DNA of 47,873 nt from Acidimicrobiia bacterium (GTDB lineage Bacteria > Actinomycetota > Acidimicrobiia > Spongiisociales > ZC4RG35), in assembly GCA_015488325.1 (NCBI GenBank), contig WFOA01000015.1, forward strand, positions 1 through 47,873, given 5' to 3'. The notes under the pieces are model-generated. The model did no database searches, was not told the origin of the DNA, and saw nothing but the letters and a program-made list of their open reading frames with translations. The number at the start of each line of letters is the position of its first letter. The first letter of the stretch is position 1. Of this stretch, positions 8,605-35,527 are shown in pieces. The translations under genes were made by a program, and so were the position numbers.

Positions 8605-9288
8605 GTGACCGCCTCCGACACCGAACGCCTCCCCACCTCCGAAGCGGAGGAGATGTACCTCATCACGATCGCGATGGCGGTGGAGGAGGGACACGAGGGC
8701 CCGGTACCGGTCCCCCAGCTCGCCAAGGCGTTGGGAGTCTCCCGGGTCTCGGCCAACGAGATGGTGAAGAAGCTCGCCGACCGGGGTCTGGTGGAGTACG
8801 CCCGTTACAAGGGAGCGAGCCTCTCTCCGGCAGGCGAAGAGATCGCCCGGGCGGTGCTGCGACGTCGACGCCTGTGGTCGGTGTTCCTCTCCGAACGCCT
8901 CGGCCTCACACCGCAGGCCGCCGACACCGTGGCCTGCGAGTTCGAGCACATCACGCCCGCCGACGTGGCCCAACGTCTCGCCGAGTTCCTGGGGGATCCC
9001 CAGACCAGCCCCCAGGGAAAGCCGATCCCCGCCGCCTCCGCTGCCGCGCCCCGACCTGCGGTGACGATCCCGCTCGGAGAGGCACAGGTGGGACGAGGGG
9101 TCGAGGTGGTAGGGGTCGACGGCGACACCGCAGGCCGCTCCTTCCTCTCCGAACAGGGGATCGCGCCCGGTGCTCGCATCACGCTCCTCGCCGTGGCGGA
9201 CGGCGGGGCCTGCCTGGTGGAGACCGACGGCGGCCGGGTCCACATCTCGGCGGATCTCGCCCGGACGGTGACGGTCGCCGCCGGGTGA
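8605..9288 (+). CDS. DtxR-family metal-dependent transcriptional regulator with C-terminal FeoA-like domain
   Basis: 'EEMYLITIAMAVEEG...VPVPQLAKALGVSRVSANEMVKKLADRGLVEYARYKGASLSPAGEEIA...'; C-terminal SH3-like region. Confidence 0.88.
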   Translation: MTASDTERLPTSEAEEMYLITIAMAVEEGHEGPVPVPQLAKALGVSRVSANEMVKKLADRGLVEYARYKGASLSPAGEEIARAVLRRRRLWSVFLSERLGLTPQAADTVACEFEHITPADVAQRLAEFLGDPQTSPQGKPIPAASAAAPRPAVTIPLGEAQVGRGVEVVGVDGDTAGRSFLSEQGIAPGARITLLAVADGGACLVETDGGRVHISADLARTVTVAAG

Positions 9289-9388
9289 GCCCGGTGGCGT
9301 CGCCAGACGGTGACGATCCGGACCTCGGCTACAGTATCAGGGCAGCCATACGAATCTTCGCAGGCTCTGTGACGATCGGGGAGTCTCC

Positions 9389-10414
9389 ATTCCGTACCTG
9401 CAGGCCCATCGCATCACGAAATGGTTCGGTGACGTCGCCGCCGTAGCCGACGTCAGCTTCGGTGTGGAACGGGGCGAGACCCTAGTGCTGCTCGGGCCGA
9501 GCGGATGCGGCAAGACCACGCTCCTTCGGGTCCTCGCCGGACTCGAGCTCCCCGACTCGGGGACGATCACCTTGGACGGAGAGATCCTCAGTGGTGGCGG
9601 CACCTTCGTTCCCGCCGAACGGCGACGCGTCGGGATGGTGTTCCAGGACTGGGCCCTGTTCCCGCACCTCACGGTCGCCGAGAACGTCGCGTTCGGTGTC
9701 GCCGACGAGCCCCACGCCCGCCGACGGGTGGCTGAGACCTTGGAGATGGTGGGTCTCACCGACCTCGCCGACCGCTACCCCGAGGCCCTCTCCGGCGGGC
9801 AGATGCAGCGGGTGGCCCTCGCCCGGGCGTTGGCGCCTCGCCCGCGGGTCTTGTTGTTCGACGAGCCCTTCTCCAATCTGGACGTCACCTTGAGGAACCA
9901 GGTCCGCAGCGACATCGCCGAGCTGATGCGGGCGGTCGGGACGACGTCGGTCTTCGTCACCCACGACCAGGAGGAGGCTTTCGTTCTCGGCGACCGGGTC
10001 GCCGTCATGCGGGACGGCCAGATCGTCCAGTTGGGCGCCCCGGCGGAGGTGTACCAGTACCCGGCGACGCCGTGGGTGGCGACGTTCGTCGGGGACGCGA
10101 ACCTCCTCGAAGGTGAGGCGTCGGACGGTCGAGTCCAGACCGTCGTGGGGGCCCTTCCGCTGTCGAACGAGGTGACGGGGAGGTGTCGGGTCGTGGTCCG
10201 ACCCGAATACCTGATGATCGGCAACGGCTATGACGGCCTCGTCACCGGCGTCGAGTTCTACGGCCACGACACGTCGTATCGGGTGACGATGGGTGCGGTC
10301 ACGTTGACGGTCCGGGGCATGGCCGCTCCGAGGTTCGGCGTGGGGGATCGGGTCTCGGTCACCTACGGAGGCCCGAAGGTGGTGGCCTTCGCCGCCGACG
10401 ACGCCGTCTCCTGA
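9389..10414 (+). CDS. Fe(III) ABC transporter ATP-binding protein
   Basis: 'LLGPSGCGKTTLLRVLAGLE', 'LSGGQMQRVALARALAPRPRVLLFDEPFSNLD'. Domain homology begins upstream of the first GTG (9464); ATT at 9389 with a GGGGAG SD is the best start candidate. Confidence 0.82.
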   Translation: MPYLQAHRITKWFGDVAAVADVSFGVERGETLVLLGPSGCGKTTLLRVLAGLELPDSGTITLDGEILSGGGTFVPAERRRVGMVFQDWALFPHLTVAENVAFGVADEPHARRRVAETLEMVGLTDLADRYPEALSGGQMQRVALARALAPRPRVLLFDEPFSNLDVTLRNQVRSDIAELMRAVGTTSVFVTHDQEEAFVLGDRVAVMRDGQIVQLGAPAEVYQYPATPWVATFVGDANLLEGEASDGRVQTVVGALPLSNEVTGRCRVVVRPEYLMIGNGYDGLVTGVEFYGHDTSYRVTMGAVTLTVRGMAAPRFGVGDRVSVTYGGPKVVAFAADDAVS

Positions 10415-10436
10415 CCGGCGACCGACCCTTCCCACG

Positions 10437-10480
10437 TTGGGTAAGGCCTTCCATGCCTAAAGCGTTAGGCTGACTTTACA
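10437..10480. promoter_or_regulatory. Candidate DtxR/IdeR-type operator(s)
   Basis: TTGGGTAAGGCCTTCCATGCCTAAAGCGTTAGGCTGACTTTACA: GTTAGGCTGAC core resembles the IdeR core GTTAGGCTAAC; internal CCTAA-AGCG-TTAGG inverted repeat. Confidence 0.55.
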
Positions 10481-10553
10481 TTCTTGGTCACCGGTGTCTA
10501 CGCTTGCCGCCGCCGACCGGATCCTCCGGATCCCATCGAACAAGGAGCAGACC

Positions 10554-11558
10554 GTGAAACGACCCCTTCTCGCCCTCCTCGGGTCCCTCGCCCTCCTCCT
10601 CGCCGCCTGCGGAGGAGGACAGCCCGAAACCCTCACCGTGTACTCGGGACGCACCGAGAACCTGATCGGGCCGCTGCTCGAACGGTTCACCGCCGAGACC
10701 GGCATCCCCGTCGAGGTCCGCTACGGACAGTCCGCCGACCTGGCCCTCCTCATCGACCAGGAGGGCGATCGCAGCCCGGCCGACGTCTTCATCTCCCAAA
10801 GCCCCGGCGCCGTCGGGTACCTGGCCGAACGGGACCGCCTCCGACCGATCCCCGAACGGCTCCTCGGCCTCGTACCCGCCGAATTCCGCAACGCAGACGG
10901 GCTGTGGATCGGGATGACCGGGCGGGTCCGGACCCTCGTGTACAACCGGGACTTGGTCGACCCAGCCGACCTCCCCCGATCGGTCTTCGACCTGACCGAC
11001 GAGGCGTACCGGGGCCGGGTCGCCGTCGCACCGGCCAACGGGTCCTTCCAGGATTTCGTCACCGCCATGCGGGAGCTGTACGGCGACGACGCCGCCCTCG
11101 ACTGGCTCCGGGGCCTCGCCGCCAACGACGCCCAGACCTACGCCAACAACACCGCCATCGTCCAGGCAGTCGCCCGCGGCGACGTCCCCATGGGACTCGT
11201 CAACCACTACTACAACCTCCGGGCCAAGGCAGAGGACCCCACCATCGCCTCGGAGAACAGCCCCTTCGCCGACGGCGACATCGGGAACCTGATGATCGTC
11301 ACCGCCATCACCGTCCTCTCCACCGCCGACGCCCCCGAAGACGCCGAGCGTCTCGTCGAGTTCATGCTGGGCGAAGAGGCGCAGCGGTTCTTCAGCGAAC
11401 AGACCTTCGAATACCCGCTGGCTGCCGGTGTCGAACCCGCCGACGTCCTTCCCCCGCTCTCCGCCGTCGGCGTGGCCACCTACGATTTCGACCGGCTCGG
11501 CGGAGGTCTGGAACGCACCAAGGAGTTGATCGATGAGAGCGGTCTCGAAGGTCCCTGA
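10554..11558 (+). CDS. Fe(III) ABC transporter substrate-binding lipoprotein
   Basis: Lipobox 'LLLAAC'; 'LTVYSGRTENLIGPLLERFTAETGIPVEVRYGQSADLALLI...PADVFISQSPGAVGYL'; SD AAGGAG. Confidence 0.88.
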   Translation: MKRPLLALLGSLALLLAACGGGQPETLTVYSGRTENLIGPLLERFTAETGIPVEVRYGQSADLALLIDQEGDRSPADVFISQSPGAVGYLAERDRLRPIPERLLGLVPAEFRNADGLWIGMTGRVRTLVYNRDLVDPADLPRSVFDLTDEAYRGRVAVAPANGSFQDFVTAMRELYGDDAALDWLRGLAANDAQTYANNTAIVQAVARGDVPMGLVNHYYNLRAKAEDPTIASENSPFADGDIGNLMIVTAITVLSTADAPEDAERLVEFMLGEEAQRFFSEQTFEYPLAAGVEPADVLPPLSAVGVATYDFDRLGGGLERTKELIDESGLEGP

Positions 11559-13143
11559 CCGGACCTTCGAGACCCGCCCGCCCCGGCGATGGGGGCTGCG
11601 GACGGTCGTCGCCCTGGTCGGGGTGGGGTTCGCCTTCCCCGTCGGGTACCTGGCCTGGGCGGCGGTCGGTCTCGGCGGTGAGTTCTGGGCGACCCTCACG
11701 AGCGCGTCGACCCTCGTCCCCCTCCGCAACTCGCTCCTCATCGCCGGTTCCACGGCGGCGGCCGCCGGTCTCCTCGGATCCCTGCTGGCCTGGCTCGTGG
11801 TGCGCACCGACCTGCCCGGCCGCCGCCTGTGGAAGACGATCCTGCCTCTTCCCCTGGTGGTCCCCTCGTTCGTGGGCGCCACCGCGCTCCTCGCCGCCTT
11901 CGGCCGCGGGGGGCTGGTCCCCTTCATCCCCCGGGTGGAAGGCTTCTGGGGCGCCTTCGCCGTGTTGACCCTCCTCACCTACCCCTACGTCTACCTCCCC
12001 GTCGCGGCCCGACTCTCCACCACGTCGGCCTCCCTCGAAGAGGCGGCCCGTCTCCTGGGCAAAGGGTCCGTCACCACCATCGTCCGGGTGGTCGTCCCCC
12101 AGATCCGCGAGACGGTGCTGGCCGGGACGATGCTCGTCTTCCTCTACGGCTTGAGCGACTTCGGGGCCGTCTCGCTCATGCGCTACGACACCATCACCCG
12201 GGCGATCTTCTCGGCCCGCCTCTTCGACCGCGCCGCCTCCCTCACCCTCGGCCTGGTCCTCGCGGTGCTCGCGCTGGCGGTGGCCGCCTTCGAGCGTCTC
12301 GGAGCCCCCACCCGGACCGCCCCGTTCGCCACCCTGCCGCTCCGCTACCCGCTGGGGCGGTGGAGCGTCCCCGCGACCCTCTTCGTCGCGGCGGTCGTCG
12401 GTGTCGGTCTCGTCGCCCCGCTGGCGGTCTTCGTGTTCTGGGTGGTGCGAGGATCGGCCACCGTCGGGGTCGGCTTCTCAGGGTTGGGCGACAGCCTGGC
12501 CTTCCTCGTCGAACCCACCCTCAACTCGGCCGGGGCCGCCCTCGCCGCCGGCGTGATGGCCGCCGTGGTGACCCTCCCCGTCGCCTACGCCGCCGTCCGG
12601 CTCCGGGGCTGGGTCCCGGCGGTGACGTCCACCGTCGTCAACTCGGTCTTCGCCCTCCCCGGACTCGTCGTCGCCCTGGCCGTGGTGTTCTGGGCGATCC
12701 GGGCACCGGGCGCCCTCGGAGGCCTCTACCAGACCTTCCCTCTCCTCGTCTTCGCCTACGTCCTCCACTTCGGCGCCCAGGCGATGCAGTCGAGCCGGGC
12801 GGCCATCGCCGCCGTCCCCCGCCGATACGACGACGTCGGCCGCACCCTGGGGGTCGGCCGTTGGCGCCGTTTCCTCACCGTCGAGGTCCCGCTGATGAGA
12901 CCGGGGCTCGTCGCCGGATCCGGTTTGGTGTTGCTCTCGACCTTGAAGGAACTCCCCGCCACGCTCCTCTTGGCGCCCATCGGTTTCGAGACGCTGGCCA
13001 CGAAGATCTGGGGCGCCGCCGAAGACGGGTTCTTCGCCGAGGTGGGGATCACCTCCCTCGTGTTGGTGGCCCTTTCGGCGATCCTCACCTGGCTGCTCGT
13101 GCTGCGCCAGGCCTCGGTGACCTCCCCCCCTCCCCCGAACTGA
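11533..13143 (+). CDS. Fe(III) ABC transporter permease (two fused permease domains)
   Basis: Multi-TM; two permease motifs ('SLEEAARLLGKGSVTTIVRVVVPQIRETVLAG', 'RRYDDVGRTLGVGRWRRFLTVEVPLMRPGLVAG'). Confidence 0.87.
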   Translation: MRAVSKVPDRTFETRPPRRWGLRTVVALVGVGFAFPVGYLAWAAVGLGGEFWATLTSASTLVPLRNSLLIAGSTAAAAGLLGSLLAWLVVRTDLPGRRLWKTILPLPLVVPSFVGATALLAAFGRGGLVPFIPRVEGFWGAFAVLTLLTYPYVYLPVAARLSTTSASLEEAARLLGKGSVTTIVRVVVPQIRETVLAGTMLVFLYGLSDFGAVSLMRYDTITRAIFSARLFDRAASLTLGLVLAVLALAVAAFERLGAPTRTAPFATLPLRYPLGRWSVPATLFVAAVVGVGLVAPLAVFVFWVVRGSATVGVGFSGLGDSLAFLVEPTLNSAGAALAAGVMAAVVTLPVAYAAVRLRGWVPAVTSTVVNSVFALPGLVVALAVVFWAIRAPGALGGLYQTFPLLVFAYVLHFGAQAMQSSRAAIAAVPRRYDDVGRTLGVGRWRRFLTVEVPLMRPGLVAGSGLVLLSTLKELPATLLLAPIGFETLATKIWGAAEDGFFAEVGITSLVLVALSAILTWLLVLRQASVTSPPPPN

Positions 13144-13218: not shown

Positions 13219-14535
13219 TCAGCCGAAGGGGGATTCGTCGGTGGTCTGTTCGAAGACCCGCCGGGCCTTGCCCACCTCCTGGCGGGGCAGGGTGCCCGGG
13301 TCCCGCAGATCGACCTGCACCCGGATCCGCACCCGTTCCGTCAACGCCCGGGCCACCCGGTCCCGAATCTCCTCTCTCCGGGCGACGAGGCCCGGGTCGG
13401 CCAGTTCGGCGACGACCCGGAGCTCCGGCAGGGTCGTACGCCGGTCCACGATGATGCCGTACTGGCCGCCGATGGCTTCGTCTTCGAGCAGCGCCGTCTC
13501 CACCTCCCGGGGATAGACGTTGATGCCCCGGATGATGAGCATGTCGTCGACCCGGCCCATCAGCCGGGCGATCCGTCGGAAGGTACGTCCGTCTCGGCCC
13601 GGCTCGTCGACGAACCGGGTGAGGTCCCGGGTCCGGTAGCGGAGCACCGGCTGCGCCTCCTTGGTGAGGGTGGTGAGGACCAGTTCGCCGACTTCGCCGT
13701 CGGGGACCGCCTCCCCCGTCTCCGGGTCGACGATCTCGGGATAGAAGTGGTCGTCGAAGACGTAGAGGGCGCCTTTCGCCTCGGGGGCTTCCATCGCCAC
13801 GCCGGGGCCGATCACCTCGGACAGCCCGTAGATGTCGAGGGCCTGAAACCCCCCGCCCCACACCTCTTCGATCCTCTGTCGCATCCCCTCCGACCATGGT
13901 TCGGCACCGAGCACGCCGTACCGCACCGAGAGACGGTCCCTCAGGCCCCCTTCGAGAGCCCGCTCGCCCAAGAGGAGGGCGAAGGACGGCGTGCAGGCGA
14001 GCCCGTCGGCGCCGAGGTCCGCCATGAGGCCGAGCTGGAATCCGGGGTTTCCCCCGGAGGCGGGCACGGCGGTGGCTCCGAGACGTTCGGCGCCGTAGTG
14101 GAGACCGAGGCCACCGGTGAAGAGACCGTATCCGTAGGCGACGTGGACGACGTCGGAGGGTCGCCCACCGGCGATGGCGAGGGCGCGAGCGCAGACCTCG
14201 GCGAAGACCGCCACGTCCCCGGCGGTGTAGCCGACGACCGTCGGCTTCCCCGAGGTGCCCGACGATGCGTGGACCCGGACCAGCCGGTCCCGGGGTACGG
14301 TGAGCATCCCGTAGGGATAGGTCTCCCGGAACTCGTCCTTCTCGGTGAAGGGGAGCCGGCAGATGTCGTCGATGCTCCGGATGGCGTCGACGTCGACTCC
14401 CGCCATCTTCTCCCGCCAGTAGGGAACGTCGCAGGCGGCGAGCCGCTCCACCAACCGGCGGAGGCGTCGGCTCTGCAGGGCCGACTTCTCGGCAGGCTCC
14501 ATCGTCTCGATCTCGGGCTGGAACATCGACGGCAT
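13219..14535 (-). CDS. paaK: Phenylacetate-CoA ligase family protein
   Basis: 'RVHASSGTSGKPTVVGYTAGD', 'YGLSEVIGPGVAMEAPEAKGALYVFDDHFYPEIVDPETGE', 'GRVDDMLIIRGINVYPREVE'. Confidence 0.88.
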   Translation of the reverse strand: MPSMFQPEIETMEPAEKSALQSRRLRRLVERLAACDVPYWREKMAGVDVDAIRSIDDICRLPFTEKDEFRETYPYGMLTVPRDRLVRVHASSGTSGKPTVVGYTAGDVAVFAEVCARALAIAGGRPSDVVHVAYGYGLFTGGLGLHYGAERLGATAVPASGGNPGFQLGLMADLGADGLACTPSFALLLGERALEGGLRDRLSVRYGVLGAEPWSEGMRQRIEEVWGGGFQALDIYGLSEVIGPGVAMEAPEAKGALYVFDDHFYPEIVDPETGEAVPDGEVGELVLTTLTKEAQPVLRYRTRDLTRFVDEPGRDGRTFRRIARLMGRVDDMLIIRGINVYPREVETALLEDEAIGGQYGIIVDRRTTLPELRVVAELADPGLVARREEIRDRVARALTERVRIRVQVDLRDPGTLPRQEVGKARRVFEQTTDESPFG

Positions 14536-14770
14536 GGACTCACTCCCTCCTGGTGGCGACGTCGAAGATACCCCGTCTCGGCGAATCCTTTCGGGTCCGA
14601 GACCCGACACCCGAACCTTCCCCCACCCCGACGGCGCCGCCCCGAGTGTCCACGGATGTGCATCTTCGAACATGCCCAACGGCCCTGACGCTGTGGCCGA
14701 TCGGCCTCTAGTGTCTGTCTGGACCTCTGCGGACACTGGCGTCGACGCGATCCCTCAAAGGAGGATCCTG

Positions 14771-17371
14771 GTGGTCGAGATCTCGAGACGCACGTTCATC
14801 AAGGCGACCGCCGCCACCGGCACCACCCTGGCAGCATCGAAGGTCCTGTTCGAGACGGTCGACTCCGTCGCCCAGGCCGAAGCCTTGACCCTCGCCCCGA
14901 CCGAAGACCGGGTCTTCACCACCTGCTGGATCGGCAAGCAGGACTGTGGGATGTCGGCCCGGCGGATCGACGGCCGGGTCGTCAAGTTCGATGGAGTCGA
15001 CGATCACCCCCGCAACCGCGGGACCCTGTGCCCCAAGGGCCAGGCGCAGATCGCCTCCATCTACGACCCCCACCGGGTGAAGACACCTCTGGTCCGCACC
15101 AACGCCAAAGGAGTTCCCGGCGAGTGGCGCCGCGCCTCCTGGGACGAAGCCCTCGAGTTGGTCGCGGCCAAATACCGGGAGGTGGCGGCCGACGACCCGA
15201 AGCTGGTTCTGTGGCAGAAGGGTCGCTCCAAGGCGAAGAGCTTCTACGACAAGGCCTTCGTCAAGGCCATCGGCGCGACGAAGCTGGGTCACGGAGCCTA
15301 CTGTTCGGACACCGGGTACCGGGCGATCGAATACACCGTCGGACTCCACGGCGTCCTCCACCCCGACCTCCTCAACGCGAAGTACGTCCTTTCCTGGGGG
15401 TGGAACATCACCAACGCCGGGGGGAACAAGTTCTGCTGGCTCACCTGGCCCCAGCAAATGGTCCAGGCGCGAGAGCAGAACGGTCTCAAGATCGTTCAGA
15501 TCGACCCGAGGCTCCGACCTGCAGGCCCCTTCGCCGACGAGTGGGTGCCGATCCGACCGGCCGGCGACCTGGCCCTGGCCCTCGCCCTCTGCCACGAGCT
15601 CATCCGCCAGGGGTTCTTGGACCGTCCCTACCTCACCACCTACACCAACGCCCCCTATCTGGTCGGTGAGGACGGACTCTTCCTTCGGGAAACCGTGGGA
15701 GAAGGGGACGAAGCCGAGGAGGTCCCCCTCGTCTGGGACGAGGCGACCCGCCGAGCCGTGCCGGTCACCGAGGCGACCAGCCCCGCCCTCGAAGGCGAAT
15801 ACACCGTGGGCGGCCAGACGGCGAAGACCGCCTTCGAGTTGTTCACCGAGCATGTGGCCGACGCCACCCCCGAATGGGCAGCCGACAAATGCGACGTGGC
15901 CCCCGACACGATCCGTCGGATCGCCACCGAGTACGGCACCAACGCCCGGATCGGAGCCACCACGGTGGTGGACGGCGTCGAGGTGCCCTACCGCCCGGTG
16001 GGGATCATGGCCTACCACATGGCCCAACAGGAGCTCGGGTTCCCGGCGCTGCGGGCCATGGCGATCATCCCGATGCTGGTGGGCGCCTGGGGAGCCGTGG
16101 GCGGCCAGCTCGCCGACTTCACCTGGAAGATCCACAAGAACTACGCCAAGTTCGAAGACCTGAAGGTGGAAGAGCCCCCCTACGACTTCGTCCTCAACAA
16201 GTCGAAGTTCTTCCCCATCAACACCGGCTTTCCGGGGATCGTCGCCCGGGTGATGCAGGATCCCGCCAAGTACGGGGTGGAGAAGCTGCCCCGGATGGTG
16301 ATCCTGCACATGGTCAACCCGGTCACCTCCTTCGCTTCCCAGGCCGACTTCCTCGCTTCGTACGAGAAGTTCGAGTTCGTGGCGGTGATCAGCCCCTGGA
16401 TGTCGGAGACCGCCGACCTCTTCGCCGACGTCGTCCTCCCTTCCGCCACCATCGAGAAGTACGAGGGGCCGTTGTCGGCGGGAGACGGCTACATCGACGC
16501 CAAGGCGTTGAGGATGCCGCCCATGGATCCCCTCTTCGAGTCCCGTGGGGAGATCGACATCTACCTCGACCTCACCGAGAAGATGGGGAAGCTCACCGGC
16601 GAAGGCGGCTACATCGAACACCTCAACAAGGAGCTGAAGTTGGCCGGGACCGAGTTCGAGCTCCCCGACGGATCCCGGCCCGACGTCCGTGACATCTTCG
16701 ACCGCTGGGCGAAGATGGAGGGGCTGTCGGGGATCGACTTCTTCGAACAGAACGGGGTGTGGGTGAAGGGTCCCATCTCCCCCACCAAGAGATATGGCTA
16801 CGTCACCGACCCGCCCTTCGGCGGGGCCGTCCACCGGCTCTACGGTGAGAGCCTGCTGAAGGCCCAGCGACTGCAGAAGGAGATGGGCGCCGACGAGGTC
16901 TACTGGCGGGACTACACGCCCTTCCCCACCTGGCGTACCCCGACGATGGAGGCCTCCCCACCCGAATACGACCTGTACCTGATCAGCTACAAGCTGGTGG
17001 AGCACAAACAGTCCCGCACCTCCATGGTCCCGTTGCTGACCGAGCTGAGCGGACACCAGCGGGTGGAGATGAACCCGGCGACGGCCCGCCGCCTCGGGTT
17101 GAAGGAGGGGGACGAGGTGACGGTGGAGTCCCACCACGCCCTCACCGGTGAGACCCGCCGGGTGAAGACCGTGGTCCGGCTCACCGAAGGGATCCGTCCC
17201 GACGTGGTGGGGATGCCCCACCATTTCGGCATGTGGACCCATCCGGCGAACAAGGACGCCGGCCCCACCCCCAACACCCTCTACTTCACCGACGAAGGGT
17301 ATGTGGGCATGACCGCCGATGCGGTGTTCCACGTCAAAGTTCGAGTGATGAAAGGGGGTGGTGCGGCGTGA
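14771..17371 (+). CDS. Tat-exported molybdopterin-dependent oxidoreductase catalytic subunit (DMSO reductase superfamily)
   Basis: Strong SD (AAAGGAGG), twin-arginine 'SRRTFIKATAATG', 'GTLCPKGQAQIASIYDPHRVKTPLVRT', 'NPVTSFASQADFL', 'MNPATARRLGLKEGDEVTVES'. Confidence 0.92.
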   Translation: MVEISRRTFIKATAATGTTLAASKVLFETVDSVAQAEALTLAPTEDRVFTTCWIGKQDCGMSARRIDGRVVKFDGVDDHPRNRGTLCPKGQAQIASIYDPHRVKTPLVRTNAKGVPGEWRRASWDEALELVAAKYREVAADDPKLVLWQKGRSKAKSFYDKAFVKAIGATKLGHGAYCSDTGYRAIEYTVGLHGVLHPDLLNAKYVLSWGWNITNAGGNKFCWLTWPQQMVQAREQNGLKIVQIDPRLRPAGPFADEWVPIRPAGDLALALALCHELIRQGFLDRPYLTTYTNAPYLVGEDGLFLRETVGEGDEAEEVPLVWDEATRRAVPVTEATSPALEGEYTVGGQTAKTAFELFTEHVADATPEWAADKCDVAPDTIRRIATEYGTNARIGATTVVDGVEVPYRPVGIMAYHMAQQELGFPALRAMAIIPMLVGAWGAVGGQLADFTWKIHKNYAKFEDLKVEEPPYDFVLNKSKFFPINTGFPGIVARVMQDPAKYGVEKLPRMVILHMVNPVTSFASQADFLASYEKFEFVAVISPWMSETADLFADVVLPSATIEKYEGPLSAGDGYIDAKALRMPPMDPLFESRGEIDIYLDLTEKMGKLTGEGGYIEHLNKELKLAGTEFELPDGSRPDVRDIFDRWAKMEGLSGIDFFEQNGVWVKGPISPTKRYGYVTDPPFGGAVHRLYGESLLKAQRLQKEMGADEVYWRDYTPFPTWRTPTMEASPPEYDLYLISYKLVEHKQSRTSMVPLLTELSGHQRVEMNPATARRLGLKEGDEVTVESHHALTGETRRVKTVVRLTEGIRPDVVGMPHHFGMWTHPANKDAGPTPNTLYFTDEGYVGMTADAVFHVKVRVMKGGGAA

Positions 17372-18129
17372 CCCACTACGCCATGGCGATCGACCTCGAC
17401 CGGTGCCAGGGCTGTCGGGCCTGTGTCGAAGCGTGCAAGATCGAGAACAACACGCCGAGTGCGGTGTTCTGGATGTACGTGTTCCGACTCGAAGAGGGCA
17501 CCTATCCGGACACGTCGATCTCGTTCCTTCCCCGGCCCTGCCAGCACTGCCACAACCCGCCCTGCGTGAAGGTCTGCCCGACCGGTGCGAGGTTCCATCG
17601 GGACGACGGCATCGTCCTCACCGACTTCGACCGGTGCATCGGCTGCCGGTACTGCGAGGTGGCCTGCCCCTACGGCGTCAACTTCTTCAACTGGAGGAAA
17701 CCCGAGCAGGCCTTCGCCGACTACCAGCTCAAGATGGACGACCCCGACTTGGCGGCGGTCACCGGAGGGCTCATCCCCCCGTACCGCAACCCGGACCTGG
17801 ACGAGCTCCAGGGTGACGAGCAGCGCCGCACCGCGGGGAGCGCCCACTACAAGGGCGTGGTCGAGAAATGCACCTTCTGTGTGCAGCGTGTCGAGAAGGG
17901 TCTGGACCCCGCCTGCGTCGTCACCTGCCCGGTCGAGGCCCTGGTGTTCGGCGACCTCGAGGACCCGAACAGCCCCGTCTCGACCTACCTGCGGGGCCGG
18001 GACCAGTTCAAGCTGTTGGAGGAGCTGGGGACGGACCCGAGCGTGATCTACGTGGGCGGCACCCCGCCGACCCCGGACGCCCGGGAGATCGAGAGGCCGA
18101 TGACAGGAGTAGGCAATGCCAACGCGTGA
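17368..18129 (+). CDS. 4Fe-4S dicluster oxidoreductase FeS subunit
   Basis: 'CQGCRACVEACK', 'CQHCHNPPCVKVCPTGA', 'CIGCRYCEVACPYG', 'CTFCVQRVEKGLDPACVVTCP'. Confidence 0.92.
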   Translation: MTHYAMAIDLDRCQGCRACVEACKIENNTPSAVFWMYVFRLEEGTYPDTSISFLPRPCQHCHNPPCVKVCPTGARFHRDDGIVLTDFDRCIGCRYCEVACPYGVNFFNWRKPEQAFADYQLKMDDPDLAAVTGGLIPPYRNPDLDELQGDEQRRTAGSAHYKGVVEKCTFCVQRVEKGLDPACVVTCPVEALVFGDLEDPNSPVSTYLRGRDQFKLLEELGTDPSVIYVGGTPPTPDAREIERPMTGVGNANA

Positions 18130-19426
18130 CATGAGACAGCCCCTCCCCATGGGAGTCGGGAGCCTGACCCGGGGCTGGGCCGCGGTCCTGGCTCTCGGAG
18201 TCGTCGGGACGGTGGTGGGAATCGTCGGCTATGCCGTCGAGCGAACCCAAGGCATGGTCGCCACCGGGATGCGTGACCTGGGCACGATGCAGGGCGCCAC
18301 CTGGGGCATCTACATCGCCCTGGTCGTCTACTTCGTCGGCGTCAGCTTCGCCGGCATCACCGTCGCCGCCCTCATCCGGCTGTTCCGGCTCGACAAGCTC
18401 CGCGGTGTCGCCCGCATGGCCGAGGTGCTCACCGTCGTGGCGTTGATCCTCGGCGCCCTGGCGATCATCGTCGACCTGGGGCAGCCGGTCCGAGGTGTCA
18501 TCAACCTGTTCCGCTATGCTCGACCCCAGTCGCCGTTCTTCGGGACGTTCAGCCTGGTGATCTCCGGGTACCTGTTCGCCAGCCTCGTCTACCTGTACCT
18601 GACCGCCCGCCGTGACGCCGCCGTCCTCGCCCGGCGACCCTCCCGCCTCCAGGGCTTCTTCCGGCTGTGGGCGGCCGGCTACGAGGACACCCCCGAACAG
18701 CGGGCCCGGGACCGGCGGGTCACCTTCTGGCTGGCCCTGGCGATCCTGCCGTTGCTGGTGATCGCCCACTCGTCGCTCGGTTTCGTGTTCGGGCTCCAGG
18801 TGGGTCGGCCCGGATGGTTCGGGACCCTGCAAGCCCCCGCCTTCGTCGTTCTGGCCGGGGTCTCCGGGGTGGGCCACATCATCGTCCTCGCCGCCATCGT
18901 CCGAAAGGCCCTGGGGCTGGAGAGGAGGATCGGCAGGGACGCCTTCGGATGGCTCGGTCTGTTCCTTCTGGGCCTGCTCGCCACCTACCTCTACTTCGTC
19001 GTCGTCGAGGTCCTCACCATCATCTACCAGCCCGGTGTGATCGAGCAGCGACTCTCCGAGGCGCTCCTGTCGGGGACCTACGCCTGGCTCTTCTGGGGTT
19101 CGGTGGCGACGCTGGTCGTCCCCTTCCTCATCCTCGCCTGGATGGCCCTCACCCGAACCTGGAGGGTGGGGTGGCTGGTCACGAGCGGGATCCTCGTCAA
19201 CCTGGGGGCGATCGGCAAGCGGTACCTGATCGTCGTTCCCTCCCAGACCCACGGCCAGCTCCTCCCCTACGGGGTCGGGTCCTACACACCGAGTCTGGTG
19301 GAGCTCGCCGTCACCGTCGGCCTGTTCTCCCTGGGGGCGGTGTTGATCACCCTGTTCATGAAGGTGTTCCCCATCGTCGACCTCGAAACCGAGGCATCGA
19401 CGGAACTCGAGGAGGTGTCGGCATGA
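18116..19426 (+). CDS. NrfD/PsrC-type membrane anchor subunit
   Basis: Multi-TM; 'TWGIYIALVVYFVGVSFAGI', 'YARPQSPFFGTFSLVISGYLF', 'IGKRYLIVVPSQTHG'. Confidence 0.85.
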   Translation: MPTRDMRQPLPMGVGSLTRGWAAVLALGVVGTVVGIVGYAVERTQGMVATGMRDLGTMQGATWGIYIALVVYFVGVSFAGITVAALIRLFRLDKLRGVARMAEVLTVVALILGALAIIVDLGQPVRGVINLFRYARPQSPFFGTFSLVISGYLFASLVYLYLTARRDAAVLARRPSRLQGFFRLWAAGYEDTPEQRARDRRVTFWLALAILPLLVIAHSSLGFVFGLQVGRPGWFGTLQAPAFVVLAGVSGVGHIIVLAAIVRKALGLERRIGRDAFGWLGLFLLGLLATYLYFVVVEVLTIIYQPGVIEQRLSEALLSGTYAWLFWGSVATLVVPFLILAWMALTRTWRVGWLVTSGILVNLGAIGKRYLIVVPSQTHGQLLPYGVGSYTPSLVELAVTVGLFSLGAVLITLFMKVFPIVDLETEASTELEEVSA

Positions 19427-19632
19427 CCAAACGTGGGGTCGTGACGATCGGCATGATCCTGGTCGGAGCGGTGCTCATGGTGTGGAGCTATTTCGTGGGG
19501 GCGGCGCCGTGGTGTGCCACCGGTGTCGAATGCTCCAACCCACGTGTTGAATGGGCGCCGGCCCTGTTCGTGCTCGGCGTCGTGGTGGCGTTCTCGTCGG
19601 CTCTCTACTACTCGATCGCCAAAGACAAGTGA
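19423..19632 (+). CDS. Small membrane protein of the CISM operon (about two TM segments)
   Basis: 69-aa ORF with start/stop overlaps to both neighbours; contains 'AAPWCATGVEC'. Confidence 0.7.
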   Translation: MTKRGVVTIGMILVGAVLMVWSYFVGAAPWCATGVECSNPRVEWAPALFVLGVVVAFSSALYYSIAKDK

Positions 19633-20285
19633 GCCTCGAAGGGACCGCCCGCCTCCGCCAAGGGGTCTACCGGCTCCTCGCCCTCGGATTCTCCTATCCC
19701 AGCCCCAGGCTGGTGGAGACGGCGGCGGGGGCGCCGGCCGCCCTCGACGCCTACGGCCTCTTCGACTTCTCCTTCTCCCTCGACGTCGTGGAGGCCTCCG
19801 CGGAGGTGGCACGGTCCTCCCTCGAAGAGCTGGAGGTGGCCTACATCGCCCTGTTCGAAGCTGGGCTCGGCGGCACCGCCTGCTCCCTCTTCGAGTCCGA
19901 CCACCTCGCCGACCCCCGGCTCGGTCAGGTCGCCGAGGTCCGCTCCGCGGTCCGTCGTACCCTGCTCCGGTTCGGCCTCACCCTGGAGGGGACGCTCCCC
20001 GACATGGTGGATCACCTCTCCACCGAGCTGGACGCGATGGCGCTCCTCTGTTCTCGGGAGGTGACGGACTGGGAGACGTCGGGGCGACCGGGGCGAAGCC
20101 TCTCCCACCAGCGGGAGCTCTTCGAAGACCACCTGGGGCGATGGGCGCCGTCGCTGGCCCGACAGGTGCGGGACGCCGCCCGTCATCCCGCCTACACGGC
20201 GTTGGCGGCCGCCCTGGCGGCCTTCGTCGAACATGAACGGCAATGGCTGCCTCGACTCGTCGAGACGGCGGAGGCTCTGCGGTGA
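19629..20285 (+). CDS. TorD-like molybdoenzyme maturation chaperone
   Basis: 'RLRQGVYRLLALGFSYPSPRLVE', 'LEVAYIALFEAGLGGTACSLFESDH', 'DMVDHLSTELDAMALLC'; in operon. Confidence 0.8.
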   Translation: MSLEGTARLRQGVYRLLALGFSYPSPRLVETAAGAPAALDAYGLFDFSFSLDVVEASAEVARSSLEELEVAYIALFEAGLGGTACSLFESDHLADPRLGQVAEVRSAVRRTLLRFGLTLEGTLPDMVDHLSTELDAMALLCSREVTDWETSGRPGRSLSHQRELFEDHLGRWAPSLARQVRDAARHPAYTALAAALAAFVEHERQWLPRLVETAEALR

Positions 20286-21661
20286 CGACACTCCTCATCT
20301 GCGCCGACGGCTGGGACGGGCCGCCTCCCGACCTCGACGGGGTGGACTCGGTCCTCGTCGACGAGCTCTGCGTCGGCTCCCGATCCGTCGAAGCGGCCAT
20401 CCCCGAAGCCACCGACGAGTTGGCGGTGGCCGTGCATCGCCGACAGGTGAACCTGGGGGCGTTGCAGGCGGGGATGCGGCGAGCAGGCTTCGACCCCTTC
20501 GCGGTGGCGGTGGTGGACTTGGACGCCGTCGGGACGCCGTCGGAGTTCCCGGTGGCGGTCGCGGCCGGCCTGGCGCGGGCCCGGGCGTTTCGCGGCGCGG
20601 CCCCCGAACAGATCAAGCTGCTCCCATCCGACCGGAGGACCCGACGCGGTTTCCTCTCCCTCGGGGCCCCCACCTACACGGGAGCCCCTCGCATCGTCCC
20701 CGAGGTGTGCGCGGCCGACCGTGGGTGCGACCTCTGCGTCACCGAATGCCCCGCCGGGGCGTTGTCCTGGTCGGACGGCCGGGTCGTCTACGACCCCACC
20801 TCGTGTGTGGTCTGCGGGATCTGTCTCACCACCTGCCCGGTCGGCGCCGTCGACCATCCGACGGCTTCGCCGGCGGCGATCTCCGAGGAGATCGCCGCGG
20901 CGGTCGCCGCCTCCGAGACGACGACCGCGATCCGGTTCCGCTGCCGGGAGGCGGTGGTACCCGCCGAGCCCGGCTGGTATCAGGTGGAGGTCCCGTGCAC
21001 CCAGATGTTGACCGTGGGATGGTTTCTGGCCGCCCGGGCTCTGGGCGCAGCCGACGTCGACGCGGTCCCCTGTTCCCGAGGGGGCTGCACCCTCGGCGGC
21101 GACGAACGTCTCGCCGGGACCCTGGCGGATCTGGCCACGGTCGTCAACGCCGTCGGATCCCCGGTGGCCGACGTCCAGGCGGACGACGGTTTCGCGGCGG
21201 CAGCCACGACGAGGCTGATCGAACGGTTCGCCGACCCCGCAGCGCCCGGGTGGGTGGAGCTGTCGGTCTCCGACGTCGGTTCGGTGACGATCGACCCCGA
21301 CGCCTGCACCGCCTGCGAGGCCTGCGCGACGGTCTGTCCCCCCTCGGCGCTCCTCTCCACCTCCGACGACGGGGTCCGCATCACCTTCGATCCCCGGATG
21401 TGTGTCGCGTGCGGACTCTGCGTCCGGGTCTGCCCCGAAGTCGACGAAGGTGCCATCGCCCTGCGCCGAGGATTCGACCTCGCCGACCGGCGGCGGGGAC
21501 GGCGGACCCTCCGTCACGATCCGACGCCCCGCTGCGAGCTGTGCGGCGCCCCCGTGGCTCCGGCGTCGATGCTGGCCCGGATCTCCGAGTTGCTCGGTCC
21601 GGAAGGCTCGGCGACGATGGCCCTCGTCGGGCGGCGCTGCATCGACTGTCGAGGCCGCTGA
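20282..21661 (+). CDS. Multi-[4Fe-4S] ferredoxin with MvhD/hydrogenase-delta-like central domain and C-terminal Zn-ribbon-like tail
   Basis: Four CP-type clusters ('CAADRGCDLCVTECP', 'CVVCGICLTTCP', 'CTACEACATVCP', 'CVACGLCVRVCP'); 'VPCTQMLTVGWFLAARALGAADVDAVPCSRGGCTLG'; 'CELCGAPV...CIDC'. Confidence 0.8.
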   Translation: MTTLLICADGWDGPPPDLDGVDSVLVDELCVGSRSVEAAIPEATDELAVAVHRRQVNLGALQAGMRRAGFDPFAVAVVDLDAVGTPSEFPVAVAAGLARARAFRGAAPEQIKLLPSDRRTRRGFLSLGAPTYTGAPRIVPEVCAADRGCDLCVTECPAGALSWSDGRVVYDPTSCVVCGICLTTCPVGAVDHPTASPAAISEEIAAAVAASETTTAIRFRCREAVVPAEPGWYQVEVPCTQMLTVGWFLAARALGAADVDAVPCSRGGCTLGGDERLAGTLADLATVVNAVGSPVADVQADDGFAAAATTRLIERFADPAAPGWVELSVSDVGSVTIDPDACTACEACATVCPPSALLSTSDDGVRITFDPRMCVACGLCVRVCPEVDEGAIALRRGFDLADRRRGRRTLRHDPTPRCELCGAPVAPASMLARISELLGPEGSATMALVGRRCIDCRGR

Positions 21662-22909: not shown

Positions 22910-23746
22910 TCACACCCGGTAGCGGTCGAGGAGGTCCTGGTAGGCGGCGGCGTTGGCCGCAGGGTCGACGTCGGCCGCGGCCGGTACCGTCTCCTCTCGG
23001 GGTGAACGGTCGGCGTCGAGGAGGATCTGGCCGGTGGCGATCCGGCCTTCCGCCGCCAGTCCGGTGGTGACGGCGAAGGCGGCCGCCCGGTCGGAGGGGT
23101 CGTATCCCTGTCGGGTGTCGACGTCTTCGACCAGATGCTCCCAGGATGCGTAGGTGTCGTTGTAGGTGACGCAGGGGGACAGCACCTCGACGAAGGCGAA
23201 CCCGCGGCCTTCCCGGGCGTAGCGGACGGCGTCGGTCATGAGCCGCCGAAGCTGGTCGGGATGACGGCTGAACCCCCGGGCGAGGAACCCGGAGGCGGGG
23301 ATCGAGAGCCCCAGGTCGATGGCGTCGAACCCCCCGATCCCCGACAGGCCGTGCCGTGTCGGCGAATCCTGGCCCTTGGTGAGCCCGTACACGCCGTTGT
23401 TCATCACGACGTATACGAAGGGCAGGTCCCGCCGGAAGGCGTGGACCAGATGCCCCATGCCGATGGCGTAGCCGTCGCCGTCGCCGCCTGCAGCCACCAC
23501 GGTGAGGCGGGGATTGGCGAGGTGGACCCCGGCGGCGGTGGGCAACACCCGTCCGTGGAGGGCGTGGTACCCGTAGGTGCCGAGGTTGTTCTGGACGGTG
23601 CCGCTGCAGCCGATCCCGGCCAGCACGACGATCTCGTGGGGTGGGATGTCGAGGGCGGCGAAGGCGTGGGCCATCGCCCCTTGGACGCCGAAGTGGCCGC
23701 AGCCGGCACACCAGATGGGACGGGCCGGGGTGTAGGTGACGGTCAT
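22910..23746 (-). CDS. korB: 2-oxoacid:ferredoxin oxidoreductase subunit beta
   Basis: 'IWCAGCGHFGVQGAMAHAFAALDI', 'GIGCSGTVQNNLGTYGYHALHGRVLP', TPP-binding 'GGDGDGYAIGMGHLVHAFRR'. Confidence 0.9.
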   Translation of the reverse strand: MTVTYTPARPIWCAGCGHFGVQGAMAHAFAALDIPPHEIVVLAGIGCSGTVQNNLGTYGYHALHGRVLPTAAGVHLANPRLTVVAAGGDGDGYAIGMGHLVHAFRRDLPFVYVVMNNGVYGLTKGQDSPTRHGLSGIGGFDAIDLGLSIPASGFLARGFSRHPDQLRRLMTDAVRYAREGRGFAFVEVLSPCVTYNDTYASWEHLVEDVDTRQGYDPSDRAAAFAVTTGLAAEGRIATGQILLDADRSPREETVPAAADVDPAANAAAYQDLLDRYRV

Positions 23747-25515
23747 CGTCCCACCTCCTCTTCCAGGATCCTCCCCGCCAGCTCCCCGGGCCGGAAGGGG
23801 ACGCCGTCGTAGCGGAGGACCGGGACCAGCCGGTCTCGGGGAACGCCGACGGAGGCCAACAGGTGGGTGAGCTGGGCTTCGGCGTTGTGTTCCACCACGT
23901 ACACCCGCTTTCGGCGCTCGACGAACTCGACGGTCTCGTCGAGGACCGGCCACAGGGTTCGGGGCTGGAGCCCGGCGACGGGGACGCCGGCGGCGGCGAG
24001 GAGTTCGGCGGCCTCGGTCATGACTCCGAGCTGCATGCCGATCCCGAGGATCCCCAGCGGGGCGTCGTCGGTTCCGAACCGCCGACCGCCTGGAAGACGG
24101 GGCCGAACCGTGTCGAGTTTCCGCATCCGTTTGTCCATCATCGCCACCCGGTTGGCCGGTTCGGTGGAGACCTGGCCCCATTCGTTCCGTTCGTTGCCGG
24201 TGACGAGGTTCATGCCGCCGGGCGTTCCGGGGACCGCCCACGGGGAGATCCCGTCGTCGGTGATGGCGTACCGGCGGTACTCGCCCTGGGCGGCGAGGTC
24301 GGCTACGGACACGACCTTGCCTCCTTCGATCTCGACGCCGTCGACATCGAAGGGGGGCACGGTCACCGAATCCTGGGAGACGGCCTGGTCCAACAGGAGG
24401 AACACGGGTCCTTGGAAGAGGTAGGCGAGGTTGGTCGCCTCGACCGCCAGTTCGAAACAGTCGGTGGGGTCGCCGGGCGCGAGGACGATCCGGGGGAAGT
24501 CGCCGTTGCCGCCATGCACGACCATCCCGATGTCGCTCTGCTCGGGTTTGGTGGGCATCCCGGTGGAGGGCCCGGACCGCTGGCAGTCGACCACGACCAC
24601 CGGGATCTCGGCGGAGCCGAGCTGGCTGATGCCTTCCTGCATGAGGGCGAGACCCGGACCGGACGTTGCGGTCATGGCCCGCACCCCGGCCAGCGCGGCG
24701 CCGATCGCGAGGTTGATGGCGGCCAGCTCGTCTTCGGCCTGCAGGGCCACCCCTCCGAAGCGGGGGAGCTGGCGTTCCAGCCAGCTCAGGATCTCCGAGG
24801 CCGGGGTGATCGGATACCCGGCGTAGAAGCGGCCCCCCGCCACCAGGAACCCGAAGGCGAGCGCCTCGTTTCCGGAGATGAGGATGCGGTCGTCGGCCTG
24901 GGCCGAGTCGAGCCTCCAGGGGCTGGCCCCCTCCCCGAGACCTTGGCTGTCGGCGTAGGCGAACCCTTCCCGGAGGGCTTCGAGGTTGGCGGCGGCTACT
25001 TCGGGACGGAGATGGGAGAAACGCCGGGCGAGGACCTCTTCGGCTTCGGCGTCGCCGACGCCGAGCATCCGGGCGGCGACCCCGAAGGCGAGGCTGTTCT
25101 TGAACAGGTCCCGCCGCAGGTCCCGGACCGCCATCCGGGCGAAGGGGATCTCGAAGACCCGCGCCCCGGCGGGCAGACGGGTCCGGTCGGCGGGACCATC
25201 GGAGGCGTCGAAGATGACGACACCGTCGTCGGAGAGGCGGGGCCCGCCTTTTTCGACCGCTTCGGCGTCGAAGGCGACGAGGAGGTCGATGCGGTCTCCG
25301 AGACTGCCCCGGGGAACGAGCGATCCCCGCATGAGGGCGGCGGCGTGGCCCCCTTTGATCCGGGAGGCGACGTCCCGGGCCACGTAGAGGTGGAACCCCC
25401 GCCGGCCCAGGAGGATCCCCAACAGGTTGGCGACGGTGAGGGAGCCGTCTCCGCCTTGGCCGGCGACCATGACGTCGAGGTCGGTGAGGACACGTTTCGT
25501 ACCGGTGGCGGTCAT
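23743..25515 (-). CDS. korA: 2-oxoacid:ferredoxin oxidoreductase subunit alpha (gamma-alpha fusion)
   Basis: N-terminal gamma-like 'VMVAGQGGDGSLTVANLLG'; alpha 'GNEALAFGFLVAGGRFYAGYPITPASEILSWLERQL'; ATGA overlap with korB. Confidence 0.9.
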   Translation of the reverse strand: MTATGTKRVLTDLDVMVAGQGGDGSLTVANLLGILLGRRGFHLYVARDVASRIKGGHAAALMRGSLVPRGSLGDRIDLLVAFDAEAVEKGGPRLSDDGVVIFDASDGPADRTRLPAGARVFEIPFARMAVRDLRRDLFKNSLAFGVAARMLGVGDAEAEEVLARRFSHLRPEVAAANLEALREGFAYADSQGLGEGASPWRLDSAQADDRILISGNEALAFGFLVAGGRFYAGYPITPASEILSWLERQLPRFGGVALQAEDELAAINLAIGAALAGVRAMTATSGPGLALMQEGISQLGSAEIPVVVVDCQRSGPSTGMPTKPEQSDIGMVVHGGNGDFPRIVLAPGDPTDCFELAVEATNLAYLFQGPVFLLLDQAVSQDSVTVPPFDVDGVEIEGGKVVSVADLAAQGEYRRYAITDDGISPWAVPGTPGGMNLVTGNERNEWGQVSTEPANRVAMMDKRMRKLDTVRPRLPGGRRFGTDDAPLGILGIGMQLGVMTEAAELLAAAGVPVAGLQPRTLWPVLDETVEFVERRKRVYVVEHNAEAQLTHLLASVGVPRDRLVPVLRYDGVPFRPGELAGRILEEEVGR

Positions 25516-26795
25516 CGGGACTCTCCGTCGTCGGTGGGGGCGCCGGGACCTTTCGTGTAGAAGGTCTTCGGGTCGAGCCATCCGAGCGCCTGGCGTTGTT
25601 GGAGGGTGGGCATCTGGGCGGGGAGGGGGCGGTTCTTCTTCTTGGCGGCGGACAGCTTACGAAGCAGCTCTTCGCCCCGGGGTTCGTCGGTGAGGGGCCG
25701 CGTCTCGATCCAGCCGTCGTCGATCGCCGCCTGGAAGGCCCGATGTCCGGCTTCGGTGCGGACGAGGGTGAGGGTCCAGTCGTCGAGGCCGATCCCCCCG
25801 GCGGCGATGTCGGCGTTCTCGGCTCCGTAGTCGAGGCAGTACAGGCAGGCCGGGCGGGCGAACTCCCGGTATTTCTTGAGGGATGCCGTCACCACTTCGC
25901 CGTCGTCGAGCCGGACGACCACCTTGCCTTTGATGTTGATGTTGACGATCCGAGAGGGTGGGACGTCGATCATCTCCCCGAGTTTGGCGATGCTCTCGTG
26001 GGTGAAGGCTTCCGAACAGAACAGGCCGACGACCAGGGAGATGTTGTCCCGGTACCAGTCGGCGACCTCGAGACGGATCGACGAGTTCTGCTGGAGGCGC
26101 ACCCCGTCCACCTGGCAGGGCACGCCCACCACCGCCAGGGGGCGGACGTCGTTCCGCATCGCTTCGAGGAGGGCGAGGGTGTTGGGCGAGTAGGTGTAGC
26201 GGGACCCGGCGCAGGCCAGCACGTCCTCTCGGGTACGTGCCAGGCGATGGGTCCCGATCTGGTTGTTGTCGGGGAGGACGTCGCCGAGGACCGCACCTCC
26301 GAGGGTTCCCGTCTCCAAACCGTGGATGATGAGGGCCGAGACCATCCCGCCGTCCTGGCCGCGGTCGAGGATCTTCGGGTCGGTGGCCCGGGCGTAGACC
26401 CCGTAGCTGTACCGCCCGAAGCCTTCGTCGGTGGCGGGAGGGCGGAACTCGACGAGCCGAGGGAGGTCTTTGTCGACCGGTCGCAGCACCGGGCAGACTT
26501 CGGCGCAGAGGACGCAGTAGACACATGCTTCGCGGCGGGCGTCGACGGGGTGTTCGTCTTCGTATTCGAAGACGTCGACGGGACAGATCGTCACACAGGA
26601 TGCACACCCGATGCATTTGCCCGTCTCGACGATTTCGGACATGAGGAAGTCGACGGCCCGGAACCCCCCTTTGTTGAGTTCGGTCCGCCACGCGTACGCC
26701 CACTCGTGGGGATCCGACGCCTCTTCGAGCAGACGGTGGTACCGACGGCGGACGCGCTCCACCTCGGGGTCGCGGGGCACGTCGACCGACGTCAT
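25512..26795 (-). CDS. Coenzyme F420 hydrogenase/dehydrogenase beta subunit (FrhB)-like protein with 2x[4Fe-4S] N-terminus
   Basis: 'CIGCASCVTICPVDVF', 'CVYCVLCAEVCPV', 'GQDGGMVSALIIHGLETG', 'VVGVPCQVDGVRL', 'LVVGLFCSEAF', 'CLYCLDYGAENADIAAGGIG'; ATGA overlap with korA. Confidence 0.87.
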   Translation of the reverse strand: MTSVDVPRDPEVERVRRRYHRLLEEASDPHEWAYAWRTELNKGGFRAVDFLMSEIVETGKCIGCASCVTICPVDVFEYEDEHPVDARREACVYCVLCAEVCPVLRPVDKDLPRLVEFRPPATDEGFGRYSYGVYARATDPKILDRGQDGGMVSALIIHGLETGTLGGAVLGDVLPDNNQIGTHRLARTREDVLACAGSRYTYSPNTLALLEAMRNDVRPLAVVGVPCQVDGVRLQQNSSIRLEVADWYRDNISLVVGLFCSEAFTHESIAKLGEMIDVPPSRIVNINIKGKVVVRLDDGEVVTASLKKYREFARPACLYCLDYGAENADIAAGGIGLDDWTLTLVRTEAGHRAFQAAIDDGWIETRPLTDEPRGEELLRKLSAAKKKNRPLPAQMPTLQQRQALGWLDPKTFYTKGPGAPTDDGESR

Positions 26796-27053
26796 GGACG
26801 GTGTCCTGGTTGGGTTCGGCTGTCGATCATGGCGAGCAACGTACCGTATTCTCCCTTCGTGACGTAATGCGACGTCGATCCGGTACCTGCGCATCGACGT
26901 CTCGGAGGGCGGTCGTCGCGGCGAGCCGCCGGCGGGCCGTCGCTCGACCACCCCCTCCCACATGGTTGATACTTGATCATATCGGCCAGATTGGGGTCTC
27001 CCGAAACCCTCCGGGGTTTGGCGGCCGGAACGCCCACCGCCAACATCGGAGCC

Positions 27054-35174: not shown

Positions 35175-35527
35175 CCGTCCGTCACAACTCGGTGCGCCGT
35201 CTCGCCGGATCGAACGTGCGGCGAACGGAACACACGATGCGCGTCCTCGTCACAGGCGGGAAGGGCATCGGCTACGGCTCCCGGGTTCCGGGACCCGGAC
35301 CGCCCCGACGTCTCCTCGCGTAGCATCGGTGATGGTCGAACCGGGAAGGCACCATGGCCCGAAGAGGGCGGCGAGCCGAACCGACGTTCCGACGGGTGCC
35401 CGGCGACGCGCCGAGCCGTCGCCGACGTACCCCGGTGTCTGCCATGTCGTCGGCGCGTGACCCTCCGACCTGTCTGCCGAACCCTTCGGAACTCCCGACA
35501 TCTCCACCACGTGTGACAGGAGACATC

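Follow-up and report, generated by a model that had tools for sequence, protein, structure and literature searches.

The locus considered here raises the question of which reaction is catalysed by the product of six adjoining genes (positions 14771 to 21661) of an Acidimicrobiia bacterium (GenBank assembly GCA_015488325.1). The window, meaning the whole stretch of 47,873 nucleotides that was analysed, is one contig (WFOA01000015.1) of a 2.9-Mb draft genome that is 98% complete, and the named relatives are Acidimicrobiia metagenome-assembled genomes (MAGs). The operon product is very probably an exported complex iron-sulfur molybdoenzyme (CISM) of the DMSO reductase superfamily, and the best explanation overall, put forward tentatively and with somewhat less than even confidence, is an exported quinone-linked CISM of its own lineage that most likely acts as a menaquinol-linked arsenate reductase. 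The six genes, all on the + strand, are present in the following order:

14771 to 17371, + strand: molybdenum bis-pyranopterin guanine dinucleotide (Mo-bisPGD) catalytic subunit (Mo subunit), 866 aa, start GTG at 14771; Pfam PF00384, PF01568 and PF04879.
17368 to 18129, + strand: iron-sulfur (FeS) electron-transfer subunit of the DsrO/ArrB/PsrB type, 253 aa, start GTG at 17368; Pfam Fer4_11.
18116 to 19426, + strand: NrfD/PsrC-type membrane anchor with the presumed quinone site, start ATG at 18116; Pfam PF03916, E 1.6e-30.
19423 to 19632, + strand: 69-aa protein with two predicted transmembrane helices, putative small NrfD partner, start ATG at 19423.
19629 to 20285, + strand: TorD/NarJ-family chaperone, 218 aa, start GTG at 19629; Pfam PF02613 (Nitrate_red_del).
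20282 to 21661, + strand: polyferredoxin, 459 aa, start GTG at 20282; Pfam Fer4 repeats.

The original prediction had claimed a single operon with the layout of an exported CISM, and both parts of that claim hold, the first on the overlapping junctions and on a gene order that recurs across phyla. With the starts of the TorD-type and polyferredoxin genes set to 19629 and 20282 (the initial open reading frame starts at 19551 and 20243 were discarded), each gene overlaps the preceding stop, by 4, 14, 4, 4 and 4 nt in gene order; the four 4-nt junctions are GTGA/ATGA overlaps, and the 14-nt junction lies between the FeS and NrfD genes. The sequence AAGGAGG is found directly 5' of the Mo start codon. 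A zinc alcohol dehydrogenase gene, starting at 21772 and thus 110 nt downstream, is outside the conserved set. Outside the window, the full six-gene order was detected in about 28 distinct loci, spanning Actinomycetota, Chloroflexota, Armatimonadota, Tectimicrobiota and others, and archaea have reduced versions of it; the set is therefore not a chance arrangement, and the check that the original prediction had named, whether the neighbours stay together across genomes, found that they do.

Regarding the class of the enzyme, Pfam and NCBIfam support every assignment but one, the 69-aa protein being without a match. In the catalytic subunit PF00384, PF01568 and PF04879 all score above their gathering thresholds and the fold of the AlphaFold2 model (mean predicted local distance difference test score, pLDDT, 89) matches, the top PDB match in Foldseek being ArrA (6cz7, E 3.9e-46), followed by PsrA (2vpw). 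A twin-arginine translocation (Tat) motif, SRRTFIK, is present at its N-terminus, with R6 and R7 nearly invariant among 38 homologues. The partners are those of a CISM, with an FeS subunit containing 16 Cys, equivalent to four [4Fe-4S] clusters, an NrfD anchor and a Nitrate_red_del chaperone. The FeS subunit scores 203.8 bits with the DsrO family of NCBIfam (cut-off 200) and 197 bits with ArrB (cut-off 450), and the chaperone scores 85 bits with TIGR03482 (DMSO_red_II_cha), under the cut-off of 152.

The catalytic subunit itself belongs to none of the named families, which agrees with the claim that the system is uncharacterised: it falls under every NCBIfam cut-off, including those for ArrA (NF041714, 138 bits, cut-off 1600) and PhsA (NF012032, 227 bits, cut-off 694), its highest profile scores in hidden Markov model (HMM) searches being those to PhsA and to PsrA 2vpw (229 bits). 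In the tree, in which the ArrA and PsrA sequences were partial and taken from printed alignments, the Mo subunits form a clade of their own (support 100/100, stem 1.22 changes per site) outside ArxA/ArrA, PsrA and PhsA; one locus called ArxA-like by context only (L104) is placed near, and not within, the ArxA/ArrA pair. Residues C52, C59, C87 and C178 are invariant among the 38 homologues. The FS0 cluster site has the form C52-x6-C59-x27-C87, in which the second canonical cluster Cys of other families is an invariant Gly (G55) and D58 is also invariant, giving the clade signature CWIGKQDCG, and the Mo ligand is Cys178 within GHGAYCSD. Two divergent paralogues in Thermomicrobiaceae (L059/L060, 41%) have the motif RRGNDC instead of GHGAYC before the Mo ligand.

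Within the phylum, identity of the Mo subunit falls from 59-88% in orthologues directly to partial matches of at most 38%, so that the family is a discrete one. It is also patchy, being present in 22 of 138 genomes of the order and in 3 of 398 genomes drawn from the phylum (own genome counted). The scan of named genomes detected it in Acidimicrobiia, Chloroflexota including SAR202 and Dehalococcoidia, Thermomicrobiaceae, Rokubacteria, Armatimonadota, Tectomicrobia and one Clostridia MAG, as well as in the archaea Hecatella, Thermofilaceae, Geothermarchaeota and Nitrososphaerota and, at 34-40% identity, in haloarchaea. No description of the lineage was found in the open-access literature, a comparison that did not extend to the haloarchaeal arr genes (Rascovan 2016). 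The CISM operon is thus real and widely conserved, and it appears to be undescribed.

Compared with known systems, the complex resembles ArrAB(CD) of Shewanella ANA-3 (6cz7) in its exported Cys-ligated Mo subunit and four-cluster FeS subunit; ArrA is the closest solved fold and some relatives of the operon have ArrX-type regulation as well. However, the Mo subunit has about 20-21% identity with ArrA, its FS0 site is without one Cys, K198 of ArrA is not kept, and the 69-aa protein and polyferredoxin are additional to Arr. With ArxAB(B2)CD/ArxXSR the family shares the parts list of Mo, FeS, NrfD, TorD and XSR, but Arx has ArxB2 where this operon has the polyferredoxin, lacks the 69-aa protein and has the gene order arxB2ABCD instead of Mo-FeS-NrfD-69aa-TorD-polyferredoxin, and its Mo and X proteins fall in other clades. 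PsrABC and PhsABC are alike in fold, NrfD anchor, Cys-ligated Mo and best HMM score; the clade of the family is separate from theirs, and their control loci have neither a dedicated X-S-R set nor a polyferredoxin.

The evidence regarding the substrate comes from genes beside the operons of relatives. De novo clustering of neighbours revealed three recurrent genes, encoding a PhnD-like binding protein (X), a histidine kinase (S) and a response regulator (R), which adjoin the operon in ten loci (L027, L033, L034, L035, L041, L048, L051, L052, L089 and L140). Among the 33 family loci with enough flank, 9 have the X gene next to the operon, as against 0 of 34 PsrA-type control loci, a difference for which the Fisher p of 0.0009 is indicative only, the loci being related and not independent. 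The best solved relative of X is ArrX (PDB 6x6b, E 2.2e-57, as against 3.1e-36 for AioX), and in the tree the family X proteins cluster with arsenate-binding ArrX, apart from arsenite-binding AioX and ArxX (100/100). Scored for the AioX pocket residues Y88, C106, Y131, S161, S163, H192 and D210 (Badilla 2018; PMC5908839), ten family X proteins keep the pocket including Cys106, the exceptions being S163T in eight and D210E only in L048, whereas Cys106 is Gly or Pro in four PhnD/PtxB-type control proteins. By its pocket and clustering, X is an ArrX-like predicted sensor of an arsenic oxyanion. In one further locus (L026, 1187-1507) the X gene is truncated with an internal gap and the adjoining S and R genes are intact; the sensor of that lineage may be decaying.

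Arsenic-resistance genes were likewise detected near six relatives: arsR preceding and arsD-arsA following the operon in Natronorubrum bangense, arsR-acr3 in Halomicrobium katesii, acr3 and a low-molecular-weight phosphatase (arsC-like) together with X in a Chloroflexi locus (L041), an arsC-like phosphatase in L021 and L089, and arsR-arsP-acr3 in the acidimicrobial L135. The original prediction had listed S, N, As and Se oxyanions as candidates, and these two sets of neighbours narrow the list to arsenic and disfavour the others. That an arsenic oxyanion is the substrate of the family is accordingly rated as a little better than an even chance. In the proposed mechanism, TorD, and possibly the polyferredoxin, would help to fold and load the Mo and FeS subunits in the cytoplasm, Tat would export both, and they would dock on NrfD and the 69-aa protein; menaquinol would be oxidised at NrfD, its electrons passing via the FeS clusters to Mo, which would reduce an oxyanion outside the membrane, most likely arsenate to arsenite, because an ArrX-type sensor and arsenic-resistance genes adjoin the operons of relatives. 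Menaquinone, which we take to be the quinone partner of the complex, has a potential of about -80 mV. The As(V)/As(III) couple lies at +60 mV (PMC10100899). The relation of these two potentials, together with the ArrX affinity of X, favours the direction of reduction.

Several observations weigh against an arsenate reductase. In the fit to the model of the Mo subunit, ArrA is only slightly ahead of PsrA. R152, H174 and C178 align with R165, H189 and C193 of ArrA, which speaks for the arsenate reading, but K198 of ArrA is replaced by Y183. The S and R partners are of the HisKA_3/LuxR, NarX/NarL type, unlike the sigma-54-type regulator annotated beside an Azoarcus Arx-type locus. About two thirds of the family loci with enough flank show neither X-S-R nor an ars mark, and neither X-S-R nor an ars gene is found near the operon in the window. 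In the set of relatives, ACR3 was absent from all six operon-positive genomes (G000, G001, G005, G024, G039 and G048, including the window genome) and present in 13 of 54 operon-negative genomes; its co-occurrence, considered as support for arsenic, thus came out negative and was dropped. Since the window has no such marks of its own, its substrate is extrapolated from relatives at 34-71% identity, and arsenate reduction in the window organism itself is a possibility held with distinctly more reserve than the assignment of the family to arsenic.

An alternative is an enzyme of the PsrA/PhsA type that acts on a sulfur oxyanion or polysulfide, in which case the arsenic genes beside some relatives would be coincidental or lineage-specific. 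The highest profile scores of the Mo subunit and the place of PsrA directly after ArrA in Foldseek are in its favour, but the PhsA cut-off is far off, the tree places the family apart from PsrA and PhsA, X-S-R is absent from the PsrA-type control loci and no sulfur genes were seen among the conserved neighbours in the clustering, which leaves this reading unlikely. The same anatomy might also run oxidatively, like Arx, passing As(III) electrons to the quinone pool in hosts that are mostly aerobic or facultative. Arx has similar parts (Mo, FeS, NrfD, TorD and X-S-R), some hosts of the family, SAR202 and haloarchaea, are probably aerobic for the most part, and around the Mo ligand the family has the motif GHxxxCSD, a Cereibacter Arx locus GHSSMCSD and ArrA SHSSVCAE. 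An arsenite oxidase is nevertheless rather improbable, given the grouping of X with arsenate-binding ArrX and not with the arsenite-binding sensors, the position of the Mo subunit outside the ArxA/ArrA pair and the poor suitability of menaquinone as an acceptor for arsenite electrons. Equally improbable is another oxyanion, such as antimonate, selenate/selenite or phosphite, sensed by an ArrX-like protein with a drifted ligand: in most of the family X proteins S163 is replaced by Thr, and ArrX, AioX and ArxX bind different ligands despite having the same pocket residues (PMC5908839), so that the ligand cannot be read from the pocket alone, but the ars genes beside six relatives favour arsenic over Se, Sb and P.

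The surroundings of the operon in the window suggest one more reading. A phenylacetate-CoA ligase gene (13219-14736, - strand; PaaK-like, 489 bits, cut-off 646) is divergent from the operon and is the same neighbour in a sister genome (L022/L023), and at 22910-26963 (- strand) are genes that read by eye as KorB, a fused KorA and an FrhB/F420-type Fe-S protein, a set that may encode an F420-linked 2-oxoacid oxidoreductase. Together with genes reading as formamidase/acetamidase (35354-36865, + strand) and tryptophan 2,3-dioxygenase (42046-42771, + strand), these hint at aromatic amino-acid breakdown. The complex could then be a Pad-like phenylacetyl-CoA:acceptor oxidoreductase of the anaerobic pathway, with the PaaK-like ligase beside it and the KorAB/FrhB-like genes performing the next step. 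In PadBCD, which carries out that oxidation, the catalytic subunit faces the cytoplasm. Here the near-invariant Tat signal puts the active site on the outer side of the membrane, where CoA esters do not occur; the ligase adjoins the operon in no genus but that of the window, KorAB/FrhB did not come up among the conserved neighbours of the operon, and the PadBCD layout, with its cytoplasmic-facing catalytic subunit and conserved genes for a CoA ligase and phenylglyoxylate oxidoreductase, is not that of this family. A search of the genome for the PadI family gave only ferredoxin-level matches under the cut-off. Judged by protein location and gene neighbourhood, and without comparison to a PadB sequence, this reading is very unlikely. 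Further upstream (8605-13143, + strand) are a DtxR-type regulator and an iron(III)-type ABC transporter (ATPase, binding protein and permease), which are kept in L022/L023.

Regarding the accessory genes, the original prediction had treated the 69-aa protein as an unusual addition and highlighted its AAPWCATGVEC motif, neither of which was borne out. Homologues sit between NrfD and TorD in about 28 loci, as a regular companion of NrfD, with the consensus APxG...SNPRVPFAP...VVYELxPD (most reading APWG/APLG...SNPRVPFAP), and the Cys pair is limited to the window and a few close relatives; as a functional motif it was dropped. The protein is fused in frame to the C-terminus of NrfD in L041 and its gene is absent where NrfD is absent (L034, L048 and L056), and it is therefore most simply read as a small NrfD partner. 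In L048, the Clostridia MAG, a frame with two CxxCH motifs (8786-9747) replaces the NrfD and 69-aa genes, which suggests a cytochrome c as electron partner. The polyferredoxin comprises an N-terminal domain, 2x[4Fe-4S], an FlpD/MvhD-like domain, a second 2x[4Fe-4S] and an HycF-like C-terminal CxxC pair; no signal peptide was seen, and all 16 ferredoxin Cys are fully or almost fully conserved among 24 homologues. The FlpD match is weak (E 2.3e-4, in one homologue), and the AlphaFold2 model (pLDDT 91) has HycF (7z0s_F) as its top PDB match in Foldseek, followed by FwdF and HdrA. No such gene was detected in the loci of Hecatella, Thermofilaceae and Halomicrobium, all of which retain the catalytic core; a maturation or other accessory role is therefore inferred, and the suggested link from the exported enzyme to a cytosolic low-potential carrier is unsupported.

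Taken as a family, these operons may stand beside Aio, Arx/Arr and the TtrA-like archaeal arsenate reductase as another lineage of respiratory arsenic oxidoreductases, found in Actinomycetota, Chloroflexota (including SAR202), several other bacterial phyla and archaea and marked by an atypical three-Cys FS0, a dedicated small NrfD partner and a polyferredoxin, a proposal given only just under an even chance. If it is true, arsenic respiration would reach marine and hot-spring lineages that are seldom associated with it, and surveys based on ArrA, ArxA and AioA markers would miss this lineage. The link to X-S-R turns the question of the substrate into a single binding experiment, and even without the substrate the operon defines a nameless, widely conserved respiratory complex with the simple signature CWIGKQDCG.

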